DNA of 34,284 nucleotides, taken from assembly GCA_024679535.1 (NCBI GenBank), contig JAIBDF010000022.1:1-34284 (forward strand), given 5' to 3'. Below the pieces are notes generated by a model. The model did no database searches, had not been told where the DNA came from, and saw nothing but the letters and a program-made list of their open reading frames with translations. Shown here in pieces: positions 11,232-19,197 of the stretch. The stretch is from Chromatiales bacterium (GTDB lineage Bacteria; Pseudomonadota; Gammaproteobacteria; Steroidobacterales; Woeseiaceae). Every line of letters begins with the position of its first letter. Within the stretch, counting starts at the first letter, position 1. Position numbers and translations under genes: made by a program.

Positions 11232-13036
11232 ACAAATTTCCCCTGTGGCTTAACGTGCTGGTTCTCGCCGTTCTCCTGGCGGGCTGCCTGTTTGCGCTGC
11301 CCAACATTTATGGCAGCGTCGATGCTGTGCAGGTCGCCGATAACGATGGTCTGGCTTATGATGAGCTGCGGCTCGAAGAGTTTGTCCGTACCGTCGAAAA
11401 CGCTGGCGTAACGCCCGAGGCGGCCTACCTGCAGGACGGGCGGGCCGTGCTGCGCTTCCATTCGACCCAAGAGCAGGAAGCCGCTGGTGAACGACTTCGT
11501 ACCGCCTACGACCGCGAAGCAAATATTGCTGCGACGCTGGCTCCGAAGCTGCCGAAGTGGGCTCGTGATCTCGGTCTCAAACCGATGAGTCTGGGTCTCG
11601 ATTTGCGGGGCGGTGTGTACGTGTTACTCGAAGTCGACATGGAAACGGCGATCGACAGCCGCATGGTGGGCTATCAACAGGGCTTCGATGAGCGCCTTCG
11701 CGATGCAAAGATCCGCCATCGCGTGGACCTGGACGGGCAGACGATCAATATACGTCTGACCGGTGCAGAGGATGTCGAATCGGCGCGCGTTGTTATTCGG
11801 CGCATGGATCAGGACGTCCTTATCAGCGACGGCGCGGACGGTAAGTCGCTGATCGTGCGCATGAGTGAGGCACAGATACAGGCAAGACAGGATTTTGCGA
11901 TCGAGCAGAACATCACTACGTTGCGCAACCGCGTCAATGAGCTGGGCGTCGCTGAGCCACTGGTGCAGCGTCAGGGTGCTGACCGTATCGTTATTCAGCT
12001 CCCGGGTGTTCAGGACCCCAACAAGATCAAAGGCATTCTGTCGGCGACCGCGACCGTCGAATTTCGACTGGTCGACCAGTCAGGTGGTGAGCCCGGTTCT
12101 CGTCGTTTCCAGGGACGAGGCACAGAGGGTGCCCAGATACTCAAGCGGAGCGTAATTGCTTCGGGCGACCAGATCATCGATGCGAGCGCCGGCTACGCTG
12201 AGGGTCAGCCACAGGTCAATATCACACTCGATTCGGCAGGCGGCGAGAACATGCTGCGCACGACCATGGAGAATGTGGGCAAACCCATGTCGACGGTGTT
12301 TATTGAGACCCGTCGCGAAGCGATTCCAGGACGGCCGGGTGAGTTTCGCAAGGTCGTACGCCAGGAGATTATCAGCACAGCCACGATTCAGGGCGTATTC
12401 AAGGACCGTTTCCGGATTACAGGCCTGAGCCCGGGTGAGGCAGCTGACCTGGCGCTGCTGCTACGCGCAGGTGCGCTGGCGGCGCCGGTCTATATTGTGG
12501 ACGAGCGGACGGTCGGACCAACGCTCGGTCAGGACAACATCGATCGCGGCTTCAACGCCATCAAGATCGGTTTCCTCGCCGTTATCATCTTCATGGCAAT
12601 CTACTATCGCGCGTTTGGCCTGATCGCCAACGTGGCGCTGTTGTCGAATGTCGTATTCATCGTGGCAATGCTGTCGATACTGGGGGCGTCGCTGACGTTG
12701 CCGGGTATCGCGGGTATCGTGCTGACCGTCGGCATGGCGGTCGATGCCAACGTGCTCATATTCGAACGAATACGAGAGGAACTTGCGGCCGACTCAGCGC
12801 CACAGTCGGCGATTAATTCGGGTTACGAAAAAGCGCTTTCGTCAATTGTCGATGCAAACGTTACGACCCTGATTGCGGCGGTTGTGTTGTTCTCAATTGG
12901 TACGGGGCCGATCAAGGGCTTCGCCATCACGCTGCTGCTCGGCATCATCACTTCAATGTTTACAGCGATCATAGGCACGCGCACGATCGTCAACCTGGCA
13001 TTCGGCGGGCGTAAGCTGCAGTCGTTGCCGGTCTAG
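11228..13036 (+). CDS. secD: Protein translocase subunit SecD
   Basis: A 602-residue RND-family protein. TM1 (about 7-24) is followed by a large periplasmic region with the signature LGLDLRGGVYVLLEVD (P1) and a second block NRVNELGVAEPLVQRQG. TM2-6 lie in the last ~170 residues, with the SecD motif GLSPGEAADLALLLRAGALAAP and the conserved DANVLIFERIREEL. With SecF it uses the proton gradient to finish pre-protein export. It is coupled to yajC by ATGA overlap and followed by secF after 8 bases. Length is typical. Confidence 0.97.
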   Translation: MNKFPLWLNVLVLAVLLAGCLFALPNIYGSVDAVQVADNDGLAYDELRLEEFVRTVENAGVTPEAAYLQDGRAVLRFHSTQEQEAAGERLRTAYDREANIAATLAPKLPKWARDLGLKPMSLGLDLRGGVYVLLEVDMETAIDSRMVGYQQGFDERLRDAKIRHRVDLDGQTINIRLTGAEDVESARVVIRRMDQDVLISDGADGKSLIVRMSEAQIQARQDFAIEQNITTLRNRVNELGVAEPLVQRQGADRIVIQLPGVQDPNKIKGILSATATVEFRLVDQSGGEPGSRRFQGRGTEGAQILKRSVIASGDQIIDASAGYAEGQPQVNITLDSAGGENMLRTTMENVGKPMSTVFIETRREAIPGRPGEFRKVVRQEIISTATIQGVFKDRFRITGLSPGEAADLALLLRAGALAAPVYIVDERTVGPTLGQDNIDRGFNAIKIGFLAVIIFMAIYYRAFGLIANVALLSNVVFIVAMLSILGASLTLPGIAGIVLTVGMAVDANVLIFERIREELAADSAPQSAINSGYEKALSSIVDANVTTLIAAVVLFSIGTGPIKGFAITLLLGIITSMFTAIIGTRTIVNLAFGGRKLQSLPV

Positions 13037-14899: not shown

Positions 14900-15613
14900 A
14901 TGTCTATTAGAATCATCCTCGTTGGCACCACCCACCCCGGCAATATCGGGGCGGTCGCGCGCGCCATGAAGAACATGGGGCTCAGCGATCTGGCGCTCGT
15001 GCAGCCCAAATACTTCCCGCATGAGGAGGCCACGGCCCGGGCGTCGGGCGCGTCCGATATTCTCGACAGCGCCACAGTGGTCGACTCGCTGGAGGACGCC
15101 CTGACCGATTGCGTCTACGTTGCCGGTGCCAGCGCTCGCTCGCGCACCATCAACTGGCCCAGCATGGGCCCGCGCGACTGCGCCGAACGCATGATCCAGG
15201 AAAGCAGCCATGGCAAGGTCGCCGCTGTGTTCGGGCCGGAAAGGAGTGGTCTGCAGAACGAAGACCTCGATCTCTGCCACACGCTGCTCACGATCCCGAC
15301 GGACCCGGGTTTCAGTTCCTTGAACCTCGGGATGGCGGTGCAGGTCCTGACCTATGAGCTGCGTGTTGCGAGTATGCTCGAGACGGGGCCGGTATTTGAC
15401 GTCGAAGCGCCACCGGCGACCGGCGAGGAAATGGAGCATTTTTATACGCATCTCGAGAACGTGCTCACGGATATCGAGTTTCTTGACCCTGAGAATCCTC
15501 GGCACCTGATGCGCCGCATGCGTCGCCTGTTCATTCGTGCGCGGCCGGACAAGAACGAGGTCAATATCCTGCGTGGCATTCTCACGGCCGTCGACAAGGC
15601 AAAAAAGGACTGA
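14900..15613 (+). CDS. trmJ: tRNA (cytidine/uridine-2'-O-)-methyltransferase TrmJ
   Basis: A 237-residue SPOUT methyltransferase that methylates the 2'-O of residue 32 in several tRNAs. SPOUT motifs are clear: GTTHPGNIGAVARAMKNMG at the N-terminus, AAVFGPERSGLQNEDL, and the knot-forming SSLNLGMAVQVLTYELR. The C-terminal ~70 residues form the short helical extension typical of TrmJ. It precedes the cysteine desulfurase by one base, in the place where E. coli has trmJ followed by iscR-iscS. Here iscR is absent. Confidence 0.94.
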   Translation: MSIRIILVGTTHPGNIGAVARAMKNMGLSDLALVQPKYFPHEEATARASGASDILDSATVVDSLEDALTDCVYVAGASARSRTINWPSMGPRDCAERMIQESSHGKVAAVFGPERSGLQNEDLDLCHTLLTIPTDPGFSSLNLGMAVQVLTYELRVASMLETGPVFDVEAPPATGEEMEHFYTHLENVLTDIEFLDPENPRHLMRRMRRLFIRARPDKNEVNILRGILTAVDKAKKD

Positions 15614-15614
15614 G

Positions 15615-16775
15615 ATGGCCGACCCCATGATCTATCTCGATTACGCCGCATCAACGCCGGTCGATTCGCGGGTGCTGGACCGCATGCGTGAAGTCGCCGA
15701 GATGAACTGCGCGAATCCGTCCTCAACCCATGCAGCCGGCCGTGAGGCGCAGGCGATCATCGCGCATGCGGCCGCGCAGCTCGCCGGCCTGTTAAACGTG
15801 GACCCGGGCACCCTGGTCTGGACCTCCGGTGCCACCGAATCGGACAACCTGGCGATTGCTGGCGGCGCGCGCTACCGGGCGCATCGCGGCAAACATATCG
15901 TTACGATGAAGACGGAGCACAAGGCGGTAACCGATGTATTCGAAACGCTGGCCCGGGACGGCTTCGATGTCACCTGGGTCGAAGCCCAACCGGACGGACG
16001 GCTGAGCCCCGAGACTTTCGCAGCGGCGCTGCGCGAGGACACCCAGTTCGCCTCGATCATGTTCGTCAATAACGAGACCGGCGTCATCCAGGATATCGAG
16101 GCGCTCGGCCTGATTTGTCGTGAACACGACGTGCTGTTCCATGTCGACGGCGCACAGGCGGTCGGCAAGCTCCCCATCGAATTAGGCAGGCTGCCCGTCG
16201 ATCTGCTGTCCCTGACGGGTCACAAGTTCTACGGTCCGAAAGGCATCGGGGCGCTGTATATTGCCGATCGCCCCGGCTGTCATGTCGAGCCGATTCTTTT
16301 TGGGGGCGGGCAACAGCGGCGCCTGCGTCCCGGGACGTTGCCGACAGACCTGATCGCCGGTCTGGGCATGACCGCCGAAGTCGCGGCGGCCAGTATCGAG
16401 GCGGATCTGGAGCATCTGCGCCGCTTGCGGCAAATTCTCTGGGAGGGGATTCGGGACATCGAAGGCGTCGTGCTAAATGGCGATCCGGGCGGTTTCCCGG
16501 GAATTCTGAACGTCAGTGTCGAGGACATTGAAGGCGAGAGCCTGTTGCTGGCGCTGGAGCCGCTGCTGGTCGCGACGGGCAGTGCGTGCAACTCCAAGAC
16601 CCAGGAGCCATCGTACGTCCTGCGTGCTCTTGGGCTCAGCGACAAGCAGGCGCAAAGCGCGATTCGGTTCAGCGTAGGCCGGCCCACCACGCGAGACGAG
16701 GTCGAGTTTGCCGCCGGTCACTACCGTAATGCCGTTGCGCGCTTGCGCGAACTGGCGCCGATGGCGGCCGGATGA
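15615..16775 (+). CDS. iscS: Cysteine desulfurase, IscS type with shortened C-terminus
   Basis: The ATG at 15615 follows the trmJ stop immediately and gives 386 residues beginning MIYLDYAASTPVD, the family start; an upstream in-frame start inside trmJ is not credible. PLP-site residues are present: His102 (KTEHKAV), Asp178 (HVDGAQAVGKLP) and the Schiff-base Lys204 (SLTGHKFYGPKG). The sulfur-carrying Cys325 is in ATGSACNSKTQEPSYVLRALG. It turns cysteine into alanine plus enzyme-bound persulfide. E. coli IscS is 404 residues and has a C-terminal tail after LRDLSP used to hold IscU. This protein stops shortly after LRELAPMAAG. It overlaps the IscU-like gene by ATGA. Confidence 0.92.
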   Translation: MADPMIYLDYAASTPVDSRVLDRMREVAEMNCANPSSTHAAGREAQAIIAHAAAQLAGLLNVDPGTLVWTSGATESDNLAIAGGARYRAHRGKHIVTMKTEHKAVTDVFETLARDGFDVTWVEAQPDGRLSPETFAAALREDTQFASIMFVNNETGVIQDIEALGLICREHDVLFHVDGAQAVGKLPIELGRLPVDLLSLTGHKFYGPKGIGALYIADRPGCHVEPILFGGGQQRRLRPGTLPTDLIAGLGMTAEVAAASIEADLEHLRRLRQILWEGIRDIEGVVLNGDPGGFPGILNVSVEDIEGESLLLALEPLLVATGSACNSKTQEPSYVLRALGLSDKQAQSAIRFSVGRPTTRDEVEFAAGHYRNAVARLRELAPMAAG

Positions 16776-17131
16776 GCACCGATCCGTATAATGCCAGGGT
16801 TCGGGAGCTCTTCGCCGCACCGGAGCATGCCGGCGACCTGGCAGGTGGCGCGACGGTGCTGGCAGACGATCAGGGTGTGCGTGTGGTGATCTCCGCAAGT
16901 GTTGCGGATGGCCGTATTGCGGCCCTGCGCTTCCGCGCCTGGGGCTGCCCACACCTGATTGCGGCGGTGGAGTGGGTTTGCAGCCATTACGAAGGCGAAC
17001 TGCTTCAGGCCCTTGAGAAATTCCCGGTCGACCGGATTATGGAGGATCTGGCTGTACCTATCGAGAAGACCGGTCGTATACTTGTCGTCGAAGACGCGGT
17101 CCAATCGCTTGGCCGCAGTCTCAATCACTGA
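16772..17131 (+). CDS. IscU-like scaffold/sulfur-acceptor protein with degenerate cluster site
   Basis: A 119-residue protein lying exactly where iscU lies between iscS and iscA. By eye it aligns with E. coli IscU: LRFRAWGCPHLIAAVEWV against ARFKTYGCGSAIASSSLV, and VPIEKTGRILVVEDAV against PPVKIHCSILAEDAI. Of the three IscU cluster cysteines only the middle one is kept (Cys59, equivalent to Cys63). The ACGD region reads VLADDQG, so Cys37 and Asp39 are lost. The KIHCS region reads KTGRI, so His105 and Cys106 are lost while the Lys remains. Another Cys is at 70. It may receive sulfur from the desulfurase rather than hold a normal 2Fe-2S cluster; this is an inference. SufE was considered, but the similarity is to IscU. 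Confidence 0.75.
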   Translation: MSTDPYNARVRELFAAPEHAGDLAGGATVLADDQGVRVVISASVADGRIAALRFRAWGCPHLIAAVEWVCSHYEGELLQALEKFPVDRIMEDLAVPIEKTGRILVVEDAVQSLGRSLNH

Positions 17132-17146
17132 TAAAGGTTTGTATTC

Positions 17147-17470
17147 ATGGCAATTTCGTTGACCGATGCGGCGGCAGATCGCGTTCGCACCTACCTCGAA
17201 AAGCGCGACAAAGGCCTCGGGCTGCGTCTCGGTGTGACCAAGACGGGCTGCTCGGGCTATTCCTATGTCATCAACTATGCGGAATCGATCGGCGCCGACG
17301 ATGTCGTATTTGAGGACAAGGGCGTCAAGGTTGTCATCGACCCGGACGCCCTCAGCCTGATTGACGGTACCGAGGTCGATTTCGTCAAGAATGGGCTTAA
17401 TGAGGCGTTCAGCTTCAGGAACCCCAACATCAAGGGCGAATGTGGCTGCGGCGAGAGCTTCAACGTCTAG
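17147..17470 (+). CDS. iscA: A-type Fe-S carrier IscA
   Basis: A 107-residue protein, exactly the length of E. coli IscA and similar throughout: [57 protein letters not shown] and the ending CGCGESFNV. The three cluster or iron ligands Cys35, Cys99 and Cys101 are present. A-type proteins pass iron or 4Fe-4S clusters to target enzymes. It follows the IscU-like gene after 15 bases and ends the reduced isc cluster; hscB, hscA, fdx and iscX are not found downstream. Confidence 0.95.
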
Positions 17471-17636: not shown

Positions 17637-18068
17637 ATGGCCGTTGAGCAGACGCTCTCCATCATCAAGCCTGATGGTGTGCAAAAAAACCTGATCGGAG
17701 AGATCTACAGTCGTTTCGAGAAAGCCGGGCTGGAAATTGTCGCAGCACGCATGCTGCACCTCACCAAGGAACAGGCCGAGGGCTTTTACGCTGTCCACAA
17801 GGAGCGTCCTTTCTATAACGACCTCGTCACCTACATGACCTCCGGTCCGGTCGTCGTGTCGGCGATAAGCGGCGACGGCGCAATTCTCAAGCACCGCGAC
17901 ATCATGGGCGCGACCAATCCGGCGGAAGCCGAGCCCGGGACCATTCGCGCTGATTTTGCAGAGAGCATCGAAGAGAACATCTGCCATGGTTCTGATGCGG
18001 CAGAGACTGCCGCTGTCGAAATCGCCTTCTTCTTCGGTGACGACGGCGTTTGCCCGCGTACTCGATAA
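17637..18068 (+). CDS. ndk: Nucleoside diphosphate kinase
   Basis: A 143-residue Ndk, matching E. coli from [18 protein letters not shown] to the identical tail VCPRTR. The phosphohistidine is His117 in [14 protein letters not shown]. Other kept motifs are MTSGPVVV and LMGATNPA-like [10 protein letters not shown]. It transfers the gamma phosphate between nucleoside triphosphates and diphosphates. It is preceded by a strong ribosome site and followed by rlmN after 7 bases, the ndk-rlmN order seen in E. coli. Confidence 0.97.
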
Positions 18069-18075
18069 GGGCGGC

Positions 18076-19197
18076 ATGACGGCGGCCCCTGACAAGATCA
18101 ACCTGCTCGGCATGTCGCAAGACATGCTCGAGCAGTTTTTTGCCGAGCGCGACGAAAAGCCGTTTCGCGCCCGGCAAATCCTGCAGTGGGTTCACCAGCG
18201 AGGTGTTGTCGATTTCGACGCGATGACAGACCTGTCGAAGAAACTGCGTGAGCGCCTGCACGCGGACGCTGAGATTATCCTGCCGGCGGTGCAGTCGCGT
18301 CACGACTCGTCGGACGGAACGGTCAAATGGCTGTTTGCGACGGACTGCGGACAGGCCATTGAAACCGTGTTCATCCCGGAGCCGGATCGCGGCACCCTGT
18401 GTATTTCTTCCCAGGTTGGCTGTGCGCTCGATTGCGCTTTTTGTGCGACCGGCGCGCAGGGCTTCAATCGCAACCTGACCAGTGCCGAGATTATCGGCCA
18501 GGTGTTCGTCGCTAACAGTGAATTGCCGCGACGCGAAAACGGCGAGCCTGCTGTTACCAACGTTGTGTTCATGGGTATGGGTGAGCCGCTTGCGAATTAT
18601 CGCAACGTGATACCGGCTCTTAAATTGCTGGTATCGGACTGGTCCTACGGGTTGTCGCGTCGCAGAGTTACGGTGAGTACTTCAGGGCTGGTCCCACAGC
18701 TGAACAAGCTGGCCGATGAGTGCAACGTTGCGCTGGCCGTCTCGTTGCACGCGCCCAATGACGCGCTGCGCAACGATATAGTGCCGATCAACAAGCTGCA
18801 TCCGATCGCTACCTTGCTTGAGGCCTGCTGGACCTACGCGGCCAAGCACGCCAATCGATTTATTACATTTGAGTACGTGATGCTGCGCGGGGTGAATGAT
18901 TCGCTCGCACACGCGGACGAACTTGCCGAACTCCTCGACAAAAAACCTGCGAAGGTCAATCTGATTCCGTTCAACCCCTTCCCGGGCACCGTATTCAAGC
19001 GGTCGTCGGCCGATACGATTCGGCATTTCCAGAATCGGTTGCGCCAGAAAGGGATGGTCGCAACGACCCGCAAGACGCGGGGCGACGACATCGATGCAGC
19101 CTGCGGGCAATTGGCAGGTAAAGTGAGTGATCGCGTACGAAACCGACTTGGAGACAAGACCTTCGGCAACAGAAATATAAAGGTGGTGTCAGCGTGA
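18076..19197 (+). CDS. rlmN: Dual-specificity 23S rRNA/tRNA adenine-C2 methyltransferase RlmN
   Basis: The ATG at 18076, 7 bases after the ndk stop, gives 373 residues. An earlier in-frame start lies inside ndk and is rejected. It is a radical SAM enzyme with the cluster motif Cys116-x3-Cys120-x2-Cys123 ([12 protein letters not shown]). The two mechanism cysteines are Cys109 (TLCISSQ) and Cys343 (DIDAACGQL). It adds methyl to C2 of A2503 in 23S rRNA and A37 in some tRNAs. [17 protein letters not shown] and AVSLHAPND are further family motifs. Cfr-type C8 methylation is unlikely because of the gene order. It overlaps the next gene by GTGA. Confidence 0.95.

Follow-up and report, generated by a model that had tools for sequence, protein, structure and literature searches.

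We analysed a 34,284-nucleotide stretch of DNA from a Chromatiales bacterium (the window, in what follows) and found that it encodes, on the + strand at positions 16772..17131, a protein of 119 residues which has kept the IscU fold while losing most of the ligands that hold a cluster. This protein, designated IscU* (gene iscU*), was identified from profiles, alignment, an AlphaFold2 model and Foldseek comparison. With moderate confidence we favour the reading that IscU* is an IscS-dedicated 'pseudo-scaffold' subunit, which tunes the cysteine desulfurase IscS or passes the persulfide of that enzyme on to non-cluster targets. The cluster site is what usually defines IscU; across the order examined (Steroidobacterales), that site has largely been lost, and the fold and some of the surface facing IscS remain. 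IscU* separates the service of IscU to the desulfurase from its service to clusters and makes the question testable, and it bears on the supply of sulfur for tRNA thiolation in Gram-negative bacteria without Tus proteins. For annotators, the consequence is that a NifU_N match beside iscS is no evidence for the ISC pathway. Literature searches, covering the listed titles and abstract openings from an open-access library, showed neither a report of a protein of this kind nor one of a fusion between IscS and IscU.

IscU* is a genuine homologue of IscU and not a chance match. The Pfam family NifU_N matches it at 27.5 bits (cut-off 22), and the NCBIfam IscU profile (TIGR01999) gives 25 bits, far below its cut-off of 192.4. 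The initial annotation had named a better match to a known single-cysteine acceptor family as grounds for rejecting its reading; a Pfam search at E up to 10 returned just NifU_N and one family under its own cut-off, with no match to SufE or TusA. Structure prediction gave an IscU fold: the AlphaFold2 model, built with 76 relatives in the alignment, has a pLDDT of 94.6 and a pTM of 0.88, and its best Foldseek matches are IscU chains, including that of E. coli (3lvl_A, TM 0.85, rmsd 1.5). SufU, to which NCBIfam assigns sulfur transfer within a desulfurase system, belongs to the same superfamily but differs from IscU* in fold comparison (TM about 0.6), in profile (TIGR01994 does not match the window protein at E up to 1) and in being present as a separate gene in the same genome. 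Profile and fold together rule out, for the window protein, a SufU or NifU misread as IscU*; among the 77 members of alignment A2, TIGR01994 matches 17 at E up to 0.01.

In an alignment to IscU of E. coli, the protein has Gln34 for Cys37, Val36 for Asp39, Cys59 for Cys63, Cys70 for Thr74, Lys99 for Lys103, Gly101 for His105 and Arg102 for Cys106. The loss of two of the three cluster cysteines with retention of Cys59, as noticed in the initial annotation, is therefore borne out by the alignment, and since Asp39 and His105 have gone as well, Cys59 (codon 16946..16948, + strand, motif GCPH) is the sole survivor of the five cluster-site residues. The codon of the additional Cys70 lies at 16979..16981 (+ strand). 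IscU* resembles E. coli IscU in fold, in its place after iscS and in some docking residues (Tyr3, Gly62, Cys63 and Lys103), but lacks the remaining ligands and the LPPVK chaperone motif, which reads VPIEK, and its locus lacks hscBA and fdx.

Profiles confirm that the gene occupies the iscU position between an iscS-like and an iscA-like gene. All genes of the locus lie on the + strand in the order trmJ, iscS, iscU*, iscA, ndk, rlmN, where trmJ, ndk and rlmN are names that we presume from the sequences of these neighbours. The trmJ-like gene (14900..15613), a conserved left neighbour with a relative in 105 of 115 loci of the order, precedes the gene for an IscS-type cysteine desulfurase of 386 residues (15615..16775, from profile searches and translation), whose C-terminus is about 15 residues shorter than that of E. 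coli IscS. The uninterrupted iscU* frame overlaps the iscS stop codon at its start by ATGA. Downstream lies the gene for an IscA-like A-type carrier of 107 residues (17147..17470, from profiles) that retains the motifs TGCSG and GECGCG; the carrier scores above the cut-off of the subfamily TIGR00049 (119 versus 58.8) and below those of NF007049 (158.7 bits, cut-off 181) and TIGR02011 (149, cut-off 150.6). The next conserved neighbours are the ndk-like gene (17637..18068), with relatives in 114/115 loci of the order, and the rlmN-like gene (18076..19197), with relatives in 112/115; no hscB, hscA or fdx lies between iscA and the ndk-like gene.

The source genome (3.49 Mb, 95% complete; the window is its contig C39) contains two NifU_N genes, iscU* and one sufU, so that, on the question raised in the initial annotation, IscU* does coexist with a SUF system and with a further U-type protein. 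This SufU (134 bits, cut-off 92.5) is encoded on contig C107 together with SufS, SufT and two genes of the SufB/SufD core. Locus L005 (G000 contig C175, about 12061-12156) also has a short match to the SufB/SufD core, with a gene for an IscR-like regulator (58 bits) upstream of it, and is probably the other end of a suf operon divided between contigs.

To describe the distribution of the protein, we searched 147 sampled genomes of the order by tblastn and obtained matches in 127, representing 52 of 55 genera. Of the 127 match places 110 were fetched, and one locus (L104, genome G069) was dropped as a true IscU. Among the 20 genomes lacking a match, six (G084, G014, G027, G028, G040 and G098) hold a diverged copy in the same place, and IscU* was not detected in the other 14, which comprise nine genomes of family f12, four incomplete genomes (70-81%) and G134. 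A plasmid collection contained no match. The nearest named relative, at 69%, is from a Woeseiaceae metagenome-assembled genome. From 173 relatives found, 80 named loci were kept (29 Woeseiaceae, 5 Steroidobacteraceae, 2 Chromatiales, 1 Lysobacterales and 43 with no rank); these were left out of the residue counts, as the search pattern contained GCPH and its conservation in them holds by construction. The column of true IscU used for comparison comprised 16 sequences with E. coli, 5 of 20 rows being unaligned.

Residue counts for the order were made on 115 aligned sequences from 14 families, that of the window included. Cys37 is found in none, Asp39 in 2, His105 in 4 and Cys106 in 5, and the Cys63 equivalent is present in 109; within the order, the prediction that relatives would keep this cysteine and lose the other ligands thus holds. 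The six exceptions include all three examined sequences of family f14. Adjacent positions are also conserved, with Pro64 in 113/115 and the histidine of GCPH (His61 in IscU*) in 80/115. The carriers of Cys106 are four sequences of family f16 and one of f7, which look like an intermediate, and the ligands seem to have been lost stepwise. A cysteine at the Thr74 position, corresponding to Cys70 of the window protein, is present in 23 of 24 sequences of its own family (f1) and recurs in several others. Its role as a substitute for a lost Cys63 was considered and no association is claimed, as it occurs in 8 of 25 sequences without Cys63 and in 33 of 118 with it.

Beyond the order the pattern changes. 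We surveyed 370 genomes of the class, of which 286 matched, most with scores typical of true IscU; we picked 80 whose best match was weak or unusual and inspected 30 loci, some of which proved to be intact IscU or NifU. Thirty degenerate or uncertain iscU-like loci were fetched, and two (L257, L258) were dropped as SufU-like, leaving a set of 28 sequences from 19 families which was chosen by hand rather than sampled and from which intact IscU and long NifU loci were excluded. In this set Cys37 and Asp39 occur in 0/28, Cys63 in 9/28, Cys106 in 4/28 and His105 in 7/28, and 18/28 have none of the three ligand cysteines; of the docking residues, Lys or Arg at 103 and Tyr3 are each found in 12/28. 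The expectation that relatives keep Cys59 therefore does not extend beyond the order, the remaining cysteine being dispensable in other lineages (19/28 without it). Several independent origins of the degeneration are not claimed, given that an IscS tree built from 91 selected rows requires just a single change between intact and degenerate forms. One outside genome, G365, carries a full isc operon (L289: iscS, iscU, two A-type genes, hscB, hscA, fdx and iscX) and a separate IscS-IscU* fusion (L262), and five outside loci (L267, L268, L293, L295 and L296) have a tandem pair of desulfurase-like genes before the degenerate iscU.

The loci are marked by linkage to the desulfurase gene. The iscS gene is directly upstream in 111/115 loci of the order, the other four being stretches that end too soon, and in 27/28 outside loci, the remaining one starting at a contig end. 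Where the genes are separate, a start codon no more than 40 nt away from the iscS stop is present in 88/99 loci of the order and 24/25 outside. In 14 of the 143 loci (nine in f10, three in f15 and one each in f27 and f136) the two genes form one uninterrupted frame in which IscU* follows in frame at the C-terminus of IscS, and in 12 of 13 inspected junctions the join comes after the last helix of IscS, whose end contains LR (often LRALSP). In E. coli, according to Shi 2010 (PMC2854127), IscU sits near the IscS C-terminus. Fusion needs five changes in the 91-row IscS tree and six in a 110-row tree, and, for those 13 fused rows that retain Cys63, the starred branches force two.

The surface through which such a partner would dock is partly conserved. 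The contacts of IscU to IscS described in the same source (PMC2854127) are Tyr3, Tyr11, Gly38, Val40, Lys42, residues 59-64 and Lys103, and E. coli IscU no longer binds IscS when it carries K103E or lacks residues 1-12. In the order, position 103 is Lys or Arg in 109/115 sequences, Gly62 is kept in 107/115, Gly38 in 85/115 and Tyr3 in 82/115 (21 gaps), and Tyr11 is replaced by Phe in 93/115; in place of Val40 most sequences have Trp or Arg, and position 42 is Lys or Arg in just 52/115. On the side of IscS, of which 109 sequences of the order were compared, Glu311 is present in 105, Leu380 in 106 and Arg381 in 103, Met315 and Glu347 are not constant, and the proteins have lost the C-terminal tail. 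A broken neighbouring IscS was considered and not seen, the equivalents of the active-site residues Cys328, His104 and Lys206 being intact in all 109. The changes at Val40, Lys42, Met315, Glu347 and the tail, together with weaker conservation in the outside set, speak against docking at the IscU site.

Fused and separate proteins differ at the N-terminus. An aromatic residue at position 11 is found in 2/14 fused versus 114/129 separate proteins (Fisher p 1e-8, uncorrected for relatedness) and Tyr3 in 1/14 versus 93/129 (Fisher p 3e-6, likewise uncorrected), and 12/14 fused proteins have no N-terminal docking helix, so that the tether to IscS may replace this helix in the fusions. The contrast is suggestive, since the tree offers only four independent contrasts, about three of them agreeing, and significance is not reached when relatedness is counted. 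Overall, linkage, fusion and selection on the gene give good support to IscU* as a working partner of IscS, and the docking residues support this partnership less evenly.

In the mechanism that we propose for the pseudo-scaffold subunit, IscU* would derive from the scaffold IscU, in bacteria which depend on SUF and in which the other ISC components are missing, would dock at the old IscU site near the IscS C-terminus and would no longer build clusters. Within this order Cys59 would take the IscS persulfide and hand it, or help present it, to non-cluster acceptors. The near invariance of the Cys63 equivalent in the order and its retention in 13 of the 14 fused proteins make it likely that Cys59 carries a persulfide here. 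The same two observations count against the main rival, in which IscU* is a non-catalytic adaptor that just shapes or regulates IscS (its activity, its stability or the access of other partners to it) and the presence of Cys59 is incidental, as for a pseudoenzyme-type subunit. We give this adaptor a substantial but lesser probability, for Cys63 is missing from 25 of the 143 sequences overall, including one fusion (L256), and yet the gene and its place beside iscS persist; moreover, partner binding is reported to affect E. coli IscS activity (PMC11302665). The loss of Cys63 from 19 of the 28 outside relatives indicates that Cys59 chemistry is not the whole story and that a relay is not general.

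If sulfur is relayed by IscU*, the best candidate acceptor would be MnmA, which makes 2-thiouridine (s2U) in tRNA, since most genomes lack TusA and TusE. MnmA is present in all 147 genomes of the order, in 140 above the cut-off, a TusA-family gene in 26/147 (21 above the cut-off) and a TusE/DsrC-family gene in 7/147. Six of these seven genomes also have an IscU* match, which counts against the proposal. In E. coli, TusA feeds MnmA through a relay (PMC2854127 and PMC5372745); this route to s2U is therefore mostly incomplete in the order, and MnmA must be reached otherwise. In Bacillus subtilis, the desulfurase YrvO and MnmA alone make s2U (PMC5372745). Because a desulfurase suffices there, and because family f12 has MnmA with no detected IscU* and may show that MnmA does not always need it, MnmA as the target of IscU* is put forward just as a proposal. 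The single TusA-like gene of the source genome (L305, 3387-3614) adjoins open reading frames that look by eye like DsrE-type and sulfite oxidase genes, neighbours that suggest it probably serves sulfur oxidation. A stronger form of the relay, which we hold only tentatively and consider rather doubtful, is that IscS and IscU* constitute a rebuilt sulfur-delivery enzyme, in which the ligand-stripped scaffold would act as a built-in persulfide arm that feeds MnmA and other acceptors directly and would replace the Tus relay in a large gammaproteobacterial order, in some lineages as one chain with the desulfurase.

Known systems offer partial parallels to the proposed subunit. TusA, like the proposed IscU*, is a small protein that partners IscS and accepts sulfur on a cysteine, but it uses another docking site on IscS (PMC2854127), and IscU* has no Pfam TusA match; TusA stacks on IscS Trp45, a position that is Arg in 71 of 109 IscS sequences of the order. 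In NfuA, a degenerate A-type domain without one of its ligand cysteines persists as an accessory part (PMC8593673), but this domain belongs to another family and is fused to a working Nfu domain, not to a desulfurase. Of the sulfur-acceptor role first suggested for the window protein, the acceptor function itself is compatible with these data; delivery to SUF is less supported, as the suf cluster of the source genome carries its own SufS and SufU.

The cluster machinery of these genomes makes IscU* unlikely as a cluster scaffold. HscB was found in none of the 147 genomes (the E. coli control was positive) and HscA near none of the 143 loci, while SUF is present in 144/147 genomes and in 113/113 good ones; PMC10631705 describes a tendency of ISC and SUF toward mutual exclusion, especially in Gammaproteobacteria. 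An altered scaffold, in which two IscU*, or IscU* with IscA or glutathione, would hold a cluster through the Cys59 of each chain, could draw on the conservation of Cys59 and of the GCPH histidine and on the position of iscA, which is next in 108/115 loci of the order. It is nevertheless quite improbable, as Asp39, His105 and Cys106 are gone, HscB is absent, SUF is present and Cys63 itself is dispensable in some relatives. The specific idea that a cluster is built together with IscA is less supported, since in 17 of 143 loci no iscA was seen over 700 nt or more downstream; in 13 of these, ndk is the next gene.

With the NifU_N profile, scores in the range of true IscU (>170 bits) occur among the 147 genomes just in G062 and G069, the next score being 112. 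The two genes concerned (L290 in G062 and L291 in G069) have no iscS in the 9-10 kb fetched around each and are perhaps acquired or contaminant sequence. The nine sampled genomes of f12 have neither an IscU* nor a trmJ match and do have SUF and MnmA; an IscS relative was not found in three f12 stretches containing mnmA, and the isc locus may have been lost in this family. Three f12 genomes (G050, G068 and G086) carry a second NifU_N match.

That iscU* is a functionless remnant of an isc operon in decay is very improbable: its divergence, an omega roughly double the iscS value and triple the iscA value, and the apparent stepwise loss of ligands, with Cys106 retained in f16, would fit a relic, but the 127 tblastn matches contain no internal stop, the gene is retained in 14 families with its start close to the iscS stop, and fusion to iscS, which has occurred in four families, is unlikely for a dead gene. 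A sequencing artefact or a single decayed copy, which relatives carrying all three ligand cysteines would have indicated, is likewise ruled out by the uninterrupted matches in relatives and by selection, and none of the 143 aligned sequences (115 from the order and 28 from outside) has the three cysteines together. In codon models of the window and 49 named relatives showing all three genes, omega is 0.222 for iscU*, 0.098 for iscS and 0.075 for iscA; iscU* is under purifying selection that is looser than that on its neighbours and clearly constrains the gene.
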